DNA of 64,000 nt, taken from the NCBI GenBank assembly GCA_020403045.1, contig JADBYK010000084.1, forward strand, positions 1 to 64,000, given 5' to 3'. Under the pieces are notes generated by a model that searched no databases, was not told where the DNA came from, and was given only the letters and a program-made list of their open reading frames with translations. The translations under genes were made by a program, and so were the position numbers. Positions 51,490 to 51,972 of the stretch are shown in pieces (the first letter of the stretch is position 1; every line of letters starts with the position of its first letter). Source of the stretch: Cytophagales bacterium. GTDB taxonomy: Bacteria; Bacteroidota; Bacteroidia; Cytophagales; Cyclobacteriaceae.

Positions 51490-51563
51490 GGGCCCTTAGC
51501 TCAGCTGGTTAGAGCATCAGACTCATAATCTGAGGGTCGCTGGATCGTTCCCAGCAGGGCCCA
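51490..51563 (+). tRNA. tRNA-Met (CAT)
   Basis: A 74-nt cloverleaf. The acceptor stem GGGCCCT pairs with AGGGCCC; D-arm GCTC/GAGC; anticodon stem TCAGA/TCTGA with loop CTCATAA and anticodon CAT at 51524-51526; variable loop GGGTC; T-arm GCTGG/CCAGC; discriminator A, and CCA is not encoded. The T-loop is ATCGTTC, with A and T where T54 and A58 normally stand. Elongator Met is favoured, though tRNA-Ile2 (lysidine-modified CAT) is possible. Confidence 0.9.
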
Positions 51564-51589
51564 CTTTTCCTGTCAGACAAGACTGTAAA

Positions 51590-51898
51590 ATGTCCGGTTG
51601 CTACATTCTCTACAGTCAGCATTTGAAACGCTTCTATATTGGAGCAATTCATGATGATTTAGACTCCAGAATAAAAAAACATAACGAGGGCACCAATGGA
51701 ATTACTAAGTTCACAGCGAAGGCAACGGATTGGCAATTATATCTTTTTATTGCATGTGAAACATACGCCCAAGCGATTTGCATTGAGCGGCATATAAAAC
51801 GGATGAAAAGTTCAGTTTATATAAGGAATCTAACAATGCATCAAGAGATTGTCGATAATTTAAAATTGAAATGCAAGAGCGTCAGACTCCCCCGATAG
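51590..51898 (+). CDS. GIY-YIG nuclease family protein
   Basis: A 102-residue protein of the UPF0213/YhbQ-like GIY-YIG type. The catalytic framework is intact: Tyr5 (CYILYS), Tyr16 in FYIG, Arg27 and His31 in DSRIKKHN, Glu66 in IERHIKRMKS. ATG start 27 bp after the tRNA 3' end. The last residues (SVRLPR) are translated from the tRNA remnant, and the TAG stop lies inside the inserted palindrome. Related proteins are standalone DNA nucleases; the position between tRNA copies suggests a homing function. Confidence 0.88.
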   Translation: MSGCYILYSQHLKRFYIGAIHDDLDSRIKKHNEGTNGITKFTAKATDWQLYLFIACETYAQAICIERHIKRMKSSVYIRNLTMHQEIVDNLKLKCKSVRLPR

Positions 51899-51942
51899 CT
51901 ATCGGGGCTGAAGGGTCGCTGGATCGTTCCCAGCAGGGCCCA
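51876..51942 (+). pseudogene. Truncated tRNA-Met remnant
   Basis: The remnant starts at the D-stem (AGAGC) and runs to the 3' end of the tRNA-Met, but the acceptor 5' half and D-loop are missing. The anticodon loop and the start of the 3' stem (ATAAT) are replaced by an 18-bp palindrome, and one extra A follows CTGA. From GGGTC onward it is identical to the intact gene. Confidence 0.85.
51890..51907. repeat. Palindromic repeat inside tRNA remnant
   Basis: CCCCGATAGCTATCGGGG, a perfect 18-bp palindrome, sits between the two halves of the anticodon stem of the tRNA remnant. Its 16-bp core equals the palindrome at 1701-1718. It supplies the stop codon of the GIY-YIG gene. Confidence 0.8.
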
Positions 51943-51972
51943 CTTTTAAATTCCTTTTCGAAAGGAGCACTT

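Follow-up and report, generated by a model that had tools for sequence, protein, structure and literature searches.

A one-gene GIY-YIG unit at a tRNA-Met gene and a probable family of SegB-like, integrase-free elements lodged at bacterial tRNA genes

Results

We analyzed a 64,000-nucleotide stretch of DNA from a Cytophagales bacterium (the window), in which a unit carrying a single GIY-YIG nuclease gene is located between an intact tRNA-Met gene and a broken copy of that gene. This unit probably belongs to a family of integrase-free, chromosomal, SegB-like homing elements that are lodged at tRNA genes and leave an intact tRNA in place. Each element comprises a single-domain GIY-YIG nuclease, mostly of about 80–100 aa, and a piece of the host tRNA that in most cases is marked by a GC-rich hairpin. 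The observations presented below are the anatomy of the elements, their association with tRNA genes, the fit between nuclease clades and tRNA type, one empty site, tandem and decayed copies, and one transfer-like case. By analogy with a known phage system, we infer that the nuclease drives the movement of the unit.

Organization of the unit at the tRNA-Met gene

The tRNA-Met(CAT) gene at 51490–51564 is the only tRNA that ARAGORN calls in the whole window (Table 1). The initial annotation had reported an intact tRNA-Met, which is present, with its end at 51564 and not at 51563. It had also described a second copy of the tRNA from the D-stem onward. This copy is real, ends at 51943, and carries, in place of its anticodon loop, a palindrome that had been overlooked. 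The figures of 35 bases for the direct repeat and about 365 bp for the unit were superseded, because the exact repeat spans 36 bp (51533–51568 and 51912–51947) and its two copies are spaced 379 bp apart. The TAG stop codon of the nuclease gene (51896–51898) falls inside the palindrome CCCCGATAGCTATCGGGG. Only one whole ORF of at least 60 aa is present in the 379-bp unit, namely, the GIY-YIG gene, in agreement with the earlier statement that no integrase is present. The arrangement as first described is therefore real, but that description had missed the palindrome, the mirror-image form of the element (tRNA downstream and a 5′ piece upstream of the nuclease), and the tandem arrays.

Table 1. 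Features of the tRNA-Met locus in the window
Feature	Position	Strand	Basis or remark
Intact tRNA-Met (CAT), the resident and restored tRNA	51490..51564	+	ARAGORN; also uninterrupted in the empty site L014
36-bp exact direct repeat, copy 1 (tRNA 3′ part plus TTTT)	51533..51568	+	Repeat comparison
Inserted unit, 379 bp	51569..51947	+	Extent set by comparison with the empty site; borders movable within the 36-bp repeat
GIY-YIG nuclease ORF, 102 aa	51590..51898	+	Stop codon within the palindrome
Broken tRNA copy, D-stem to 3′ end	51876..51943	+	Interrupted by the palindrome
Perfect 18-bp palindrome CCCCGATAGCTATCGGGG	51890..51907	.	Replaces the anticodon loop of the broken copy
36-bp exact direct repeat, copy 2	51912..51947	+	

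The nuclease and its relatives

GIY-YIG is the only Pfam match of the window protein (E 5.2e-11, above the cut-off), which confirms the nuclease gene initially called at 51590–51898. The catalytic residues had been described as intact, and the key positions are indeed invariant (Y16, G18, H31, A62, E66, and K70) or nearly invariant (Y5, S9, and R27) in an alignment of 30 family members that includes the window protein. When the family profile was compared with proteins of solved structure, the best sequence matches were UPF0213 proteins (1zg2 and 1ywl, E 1.4e-18), followed by the structure-specific nuclease SLX1 (E 1.6e-8) and, weakly, by I-TevI (1mk0, E 0.0042). Slx1 functions in repair and depends on a partner. 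The window protein itself weakly matches an NCBI group I intron endonuclease model (E 0.0056, below the cut-off), and three of the 30 members weakly match the PHROG entry “homing endonuclease with GIY-YIG motif.” In PADLOC, one PDC-S14 model is weakly matched by eight of the 30 members and another by three (best E 1.2e-5), and no PADLOC model is matched by the window protein. Background on the GIY-YIG superfamily is given in the available part of PMC1564403, and further background in that of PMC10448857.

The window nuclease is encoded by a separate ORF beside a contiguous tRNA gene and outside any intron. No group I or group II intron was detected at the Rfam gathering score in the 45 loci scanned, window locus L007 included; these loci comprise sets of 10, 20, and 15, with 12 non-nuclease loci in the last set. 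A group I intron within the tRNA is thus ruled out by the contiguous tRNA and the lack of an Rfam match at that score. Carriage by a phage or plasmid was likewise rejected, because the window protein found no match among plasmids and phages and two other family members found none among viral contigs.

An empty tRNA-Met site in a related genome

An empty version of the site is found in another genome of the genus (G010, locus L014), wherein the order is DUF3817, tRNA-Met, HAD, with tRNA-Met directly before the HAD gene. The flanks correspond to those of the window, with DUF3817 at 97% aa identity upstream and, downstream, HAD at 91% aa identity and the M50 peptidase at 96% over 285 aa. The sequence past the tRNA in L014 is CACTTTTAAAATTCC, and the window carries CACTTTTAAATTCC past the broken copy and not past the intact tRNA. 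Because the post-tRNA sequence of L014 matches the window only past the broken copy, the window can be described as the empty site plus the 379-bp unit. A multiple alignment, which keeps the L014 flank at the intact tRNA, does not demonstrate this relationship alone. As judged from these sequences, the difference would fit a gain of the unit and its precise loss through the 36-bp repeats equally well.

The initial annotation had proposed a minimal unit with no gene other than the nuclease, one that restores the tRNA gene at which it inserts. It had also suggested a search of relatives for empty sites and for copies of the nuclease beside other tRNA genes. Its proposal is supported by both searches, which yielded one empty site with conserved genes on both sides (L014 in G010) and further copies that adjoin many tRNA types together with pieces of the respective tRNA.

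Further arrangements were seen at tRNA-Met in other genomes. In G011 (L015), the nuclease relative has 55% aa identity and comes with a slightly different palindrome, and the stretch read there includes no HAD gene. The relative in G003 is more distant (40% aa identity). Upstream of tRNA-Met in G005 lies a sequence that resembles a decayed relative, with 45% identity over 77 aa. At sites matched by tRNA type only, no nuclease was present in the 230 bp downstream of tRNA-Leu(caa) in G003 and G005 or of tRNA-Val(tac) in G003, G004, and G019. Occupied loci with conserved flanks in G000 and G010 look vertically inherited. In total, the contrast of occupied and empty alleles is represented by one empty site with both flanks (L014), and horizontal spread by one case, the tRNA-Gly element described below.

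Small GIY-YIG genes adjoin tRNA genes across the genus

The genome from which the window derives holds 12 GIY-YIG domains, of which two are in long frames (604 and 463 aa), one belongs to a free-standing clade, and nine are of the small type. Six of these nine adjoin an intact tRNA. For two others, located at contig ends, the neighbor is a 3′ piece of a tRNA, and the last is truncated where its contig ends. Outside the 12, a further unit of this genome (G000) seems to begin behind tRNA-Val(tac) at the start of contig C1 (L246), where it is cut by the contig end.

For the genus, we drew 95 small GIY-YIG regions from 25 genomes among the matches listed, leaving out open frames of at least 300 aa; the regions held 111 hits, with more than one hit in 13 of the 95. 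A tRNA gene lies within 400 bp on the same strand in 61 of these regions, upstream of the nuclease in 44 and downstream in 17. Counted over the same listed matches, the tRNAs within 400 bp number 78 on the strand of the nuclease versus 0 on the opposite strand, and tRNA density is 0.92 per kb within 500 bp versus 0–0.03 per kb at 0.5–6 kb. As a control, UvrC regions from 20 genomes of the genus had a tRNA within 400 bp in 0 of 20 cases. Chance adjacency was therefore rejected on the basis of strand, distance, and the UvrC controls. The linked tRNA types include Leu, Pro, Gly, Met, Ser, Arg, Asp, His, Val, Phe, Thr, Ala, Asn, and Glu.

Among the 34 regions with no tRNA within 400 bp, 18 represent one separate free-standing clade, 12 are no more than about 520 bp away from a contig end (among them L131, which has different, longer GIY-YIG proteins), and L100, L118, L133, and L159 fall into neither group; L118 is UvrC-like by our reading. 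The separate clade (L086, L088, L095, L096, L104, L171, and others) also consists of small GIY-YIG genes.

An unusual order was noted in G007 (L147, 5418–6334), namely, tRNA-Ser, tRNA-Pro, tRNA-Arg, nuclease, and a hairpin-marked tRNA-Pro piece, as if the tRNA-Arg had been caught inside a Pro-type unit.

A piece of the same tRNA lies across the nuclease

Seven of the 61 tRNA-linked loci offered less than 150 bp on the side of the nuclease away from the tRNA and were left out, and 54 testable loci remained. Among the matches listed, 40 of these 54 carry on the far side of the nuclease, outside called tRNAs, an exact piece of the same tRNA of at least 15 nt. This count was 41 before called tRNAs were masked, excludes L089 (wherein the piece lies inside another ARAGORN tRNA), and covers loci that are not all independent, since some represent the same site in related genomes. 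Pieces of this length were present in 0 of 381 control windows, wherein the longest was 11 nt, and chance duplication was therefore rejected. In 13 of the 54 testable loci (before L089 masking), the 15-nt piece was absent for the nearest tRNA.

The end of the tRNA that is represented depends on the side on which the tRNA lies. With the tRNA downstream, the piece starts at the first base of the tRNA in 14 of 14 loci. With the tRNA upstream, it reaches the last base in 22 of 26, and at the other four the longest stretch is internal and the copies are longer, up to nearly complete. A hairpin (MFE −9 or lower) is present at the inner end of the piece in 36 of the 40 loci. In the first set, the corresponding count was 37 of 43; for comparison, such a hairpin occurred in 103 of 860 random segments and, at the equivalent place, in 12 of 43 intact tRNAs. 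These MFE counts supersede an earlier strict count (a copy at a score of at least 35 in 40 of 56 loci, and a hairpin arm of at least 6 in 31 of 40 versus 24 of 40 intact tRNAs), which passed over bulged hairpins and used poor regions at some tandem loci.

Palindrome sequences vary between loci, with the hairpin usually retained. The hairpins are located in the D, anticodon, or T arm, and no disrupted site is common to all broken copies. The T-loop core is missing on the copy side in 20 of 29 upstream-tRNA loci and retained in nine. Because of these different arms and the nine retained T-loop cores, one universal cutting site is unlikely, and a single cleavage site protected in all copies was not supported.

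Past the tRNA end, identity extends no further than 4 nt in 22 of 43 loci. In 17 of the 43 it continues for at least 8 nt, often through the terminator and partly from tandem units, and these longer repeats look more like local duplication. At tRNA-Leu(caa) and tRNA-Val(tac) loci with a downstream nuclease, the nuclease mostly starts just past the terminator-like hairpin of the tRNA.

Nuclease lineages, transfer, and selection

A tree of 95 nucleases was computed after dropping frames with stops and frames shorter than 55 aa; it is based on only 87 columns, and many of its forks are therefore unresolved. With one row per region (n = 52), the tRNA amino-acid type changes 19 times on the tree, versus a mean of 37.3 and a minimum of 33 in 200 shuffles. 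The nuclease clades thus appear to follow tRNA type, a pattern to which descent at fixed sites would contribute and which it may partly reflect. Neighboring clades hold different tRNA types, which suggests switching between types.

The tRNA-Gly nuclease of G018 has a dS of 0.215 versus that of G013 and 0.248 versus that of G024. For the same two comparisons, 11 and 7 reciprocal-best ORF pairs from the fetched regions have dS values of at least 1.34 and at least 1.38, some of them saturated. Within about 12 kb, G018 resembles G013 and G024 only in the element, in the sequence closely flanking it, and in two tRNAs. These values are good evidence that the tRNA-Gly element passed horizontally between species, from one case and a short gene (about 9–10 synonymous differences). 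The pair G013–G024 looks vertical, with a nuclease dS of 0.069 versus 0.06–0.5 in nine other pairs. Among 10 close nuclease pairs, dN/dS is 0–0.22 in eight and 0.35 and 0.49 in two, with the tandem pairs a few bases apart, and these ratios indicate purifying selection in most of the close pairs measured.

Arrays, decayed copies, and stray palindromes

In G091, a tandem array consists of 7.9 units of 364 bp. The two unit ends read are hairpin-broken pieces resembling the 3′ part of tRNA-Met. No tRNA called by ARAGORN is located within 600 bp of the array. Stop codons occur inside several nuclease copies among the matches listed, and G018 holds a hairpin-marked tRNA-Leu(taa) piece without a nuclease.

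A scar at tRNA-Cys was observed in the genome of the window, wherein 74-bp tandem repeats with no nuclease gene are present in L202 (1–330, C26) and L203 (860–1002, C32). The repeat includes a tRNA-Cys 5′ piece with a D-loop hairpin, ahead of an intact tRNA-Cys, and its remaining part may derive from the tail of a nuclease that has been lost.

The palindrome core CCCGATNNNNATCGGG occurs at 16 sites in the 4.0-Mb genome, some with no tRNA called nearby, and CCTGCCTGCCGGCAGGCAGG occurs once in the genome of the window, inside a tRNA-Arg piece. The single occurrence of CCTGCCTGCCGGCAGGCAGG led us to reject the palindrome as an abundant genome-wide REP, yet with the 16 sites of CCCGATNNNNATCGGG its origin may be REP-like. 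CCCGATNNNNATCGGG is also found inside two structured RNAs matched by Rfam, an RNase P RNA gene and a cobalamin riboswitch (L208 826–1226 and L210 872–1085), and hairpin elements may therefore insert into structured-RNA loops. In the window, the palindromes TCCCGATAGCTATCGGGA (1701–1718) and GCCTGCCTGTCCGGTAGGCAGGC (1756–1778) have no tRNA nearby.

Occurrence beyond the genus

With the 30-member profile, matches were obtained in 60 of the 80 genomes examined in the class, counting the genome of the window. Among the best 29 loci of the class outside that genome, a tRNA is located within 600 bp, and always on the same strand, in 22, of which 17 have a tRNA piece of at least 12 nt. At the phylum level, the 29 best-scoring loci outside the genome of the window, a biased sample, include seven with a tRNA within 160 bp and 22 with none within the locus. 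Linkage to tRNA is therefore not general to small GIY-YIG genes. In a second phylum-level set of 20 regions (the 19 next listed hits shorter than 250 aa plus L276, chosen for its array), nine have a tRNA and seven of those have a piece; L266 of this set is the same place as L288 of the class set.

Among six loci from other groups, four have no tRNA. A Melioribacteraceae locus has tRNA-Ala, a nuclease, and a 27-bp repeat of the 3′ flank of the tRNA, and in Candidatus Oleimmundimicrobium (L047, 2410–3197) a small GIY-YIG gene follows a tmRNA, an RNA that ends in a tRNA-like part.

Discussion

The nearest precedent among known systems is SegB of the T-even phages. As described in the available part of PMC13096335, SegB is a free-standing GIY-YIG nuclease whose gene, without an intron, lies next to tRNA genes of many different isotypes. 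It makes its cuts inside tRNA genes, and the tandem tRNA–segB repeats that arise by recombination depend on it; a tRNA end and the nuclease gene share short homology. The window family similarly consists of intron-less GIY-YIG genes beside tRNA genes of many types, with tandem units, but is found on bacterial chromosomes, whereas SegB is found in phage genomes. The hairpin-marked tRNA piece and the tRNA-type-specific clades belong to the window family and are not described for SegB in that part of the source, a comparison of descriptions and not of sequences. By our reading, the SegB motif RAWTSGAAC given there, which is GTTCSAWTY on the other strand, resembles the tRNA T-loop. Among the matches listed in our literature search, from which subscription papers and preprints were mostly absent, no title or abstract beginning describes such elements in bacteria.

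Integrative elements use tRNA 3′ ends as attachment sites. The window unit resembles them in that it borders a tRNA whose 3′ end is duplicated and of which an intact form remains, but it differs in its size of 379 bp, its one nuclease gene, and its lack of an integrase. The family differs further in that the tRNA lies downstream in 17 of the 61 tRNA-linked loci among the matches listed, with the 5′ end duplicated instead where a piece was found. An element with a tyrosine or serine integrase was rejected because the one whole ORF of the unit is the GIY-YIG gene. For REP palindromes with RAYT transposases and for IS200/IS605 elements, hairpins are the working ends. The combination of a small nuclease gene with short GC-rich palindromes is shared with these elements, but the enzyme is GIY-YIG and not Y1/HUH, and the palindromes of the window family sit in tRNA pieces; given that the unit encodes no Y1/HUH transposase and that its only protein is GIY-YIG, this identity was also rejected. 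Group I introns with homing endonucleases occur in bacterial tRNA genes (PMC3984707, available part), and their endonucleases share with the window family a nuclease gene lodged at tRNA genes, but the window tRNA is uninterrupted.

The SegB precedent (PMC13096335, available part) provides the cut-and-repair logic that we propose for bacterial chromosomes. The nuclease would cut the tRNA gene, or a structure that it forms, in DNA without the unit, and host homologous recombination would repair the break from unit-carrying DNA. Homology to the tRNA would guide the exchange, with the result that the tRNA is made whole again and the marked piece ends up across the nuclease, and recombination between the repeats could yield tandem arrays or deletion of the unit. 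The hairpin probably keeps the piece from being a functional tRNA and a cutting target, or marks the end of the element.

Several points speak against this homing model. An intact tRNA remains beside the nuclease and would hence be open to self-cutting, and clades by tRNA type would also be expected from vertical descent at fixed sites. In addition, transfer is represented by one case only, 13 of 54 loci are without the piece, some repeats run past the tRNA end, and two dN/dS values reach 0.35 and 0.49. The broken copies also have no disrupted site in common, and the searches with the window protein in plasmids and phages and with two other members in viral contigs yielded no carrier. Nevertheless, we favor homing as the probable explanation. 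The family is probably of the free-standing homing endonuclease kind, with a real chance that it constitutes a new class. More tentatively, this class might be defined as integrase-free elements of about 350–400 bp in which the nuclease and the hairpin-marked tRNA piece are the whole mobility machinery, and whose lineages specialize on one tRNA species, use its 3′ or 5′ end, regenerate the tRNA, and switch over time.

The SLX1 match favors another mechanism, in which an Slx1-like nuclease recognizes a hairpin extruded in DNA and not the tRNA sequence, with the palindrome as the working end and the tRNA piece as a guide to integration. UPF0213 (1zg2, 1ywl) and then SLX1 are the nearest solved relatives, in 36 of 40 loci the inner end of the piece bears a strong hairpin, which is usually retained as the palindrome sequence varies by locus, and hairpin-marked pieces outlast the nuclease in the 74-bp tRNA-Cys repeats and the tRNA-Leu(taa) piece of G018. 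However, clades by tRNA type suggest that the tRNA sequence matters, unless they stem from descent, and the same palindrome motif occurs elsewhere without a called tRNA nearby. We consider this mechanism unlikely, although it merits some weight.

Alternatively, GIY-YIG genes may have been captured by local tandem duplication and inherited vertically, with REP-like palindromes piling up in unconstrained tRNA copies. The 17 of 43 repeats that run at least 8 nt past the tRNA fit this view, as do the similar palindromes elsewhere in the genome (including the RNase P RNA gene and the cobalamin riboswitch), the occupied loci with conserved flanks in G000 and G010, and clades by tRNA type, which accord with descent. 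We judge it improbable in light of the dS evidence for transfer, the repeated association with many tRNA types in many families and on the same strand in every counted case, and the end rule of the pieces with a hairpin at the inner end. It is still harder to credit that the nucleases serve the host, either in phage defense or by keeping incoming elements out of tRNA genes, where integration is common. Purifying selection in most close pairs would suit such a role, as would the PADLOC matches (eight of 30 members to one PDC-S14 model and three to another, the window protein to none), but these matches may reflect the shared domain only, and patchy presence, stop codons in some copies, tandem arrays, scars, and the lack of a second gene in the unit all argue against it.

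The sites, specificity classes, and empty allele are defined, and the homing hypothesis is therefore directly testable. Genes for tRNAs are favorite docking sites of large integrating elements, which are known to use integrases, and a one-gene, integrase-free unit appears to fill the same niche in many Bacteroidota and at many tRNA types. If the homing explanation is true, bacterial chromosomes would join phage genomes as a setting of SegB-like biology, a natural set of nucleases that are each matched to one tRNA gene would be at hand, and many small GIY-YIG genes, as well as some assembly breaks at tRNA genes, would be accounted for.
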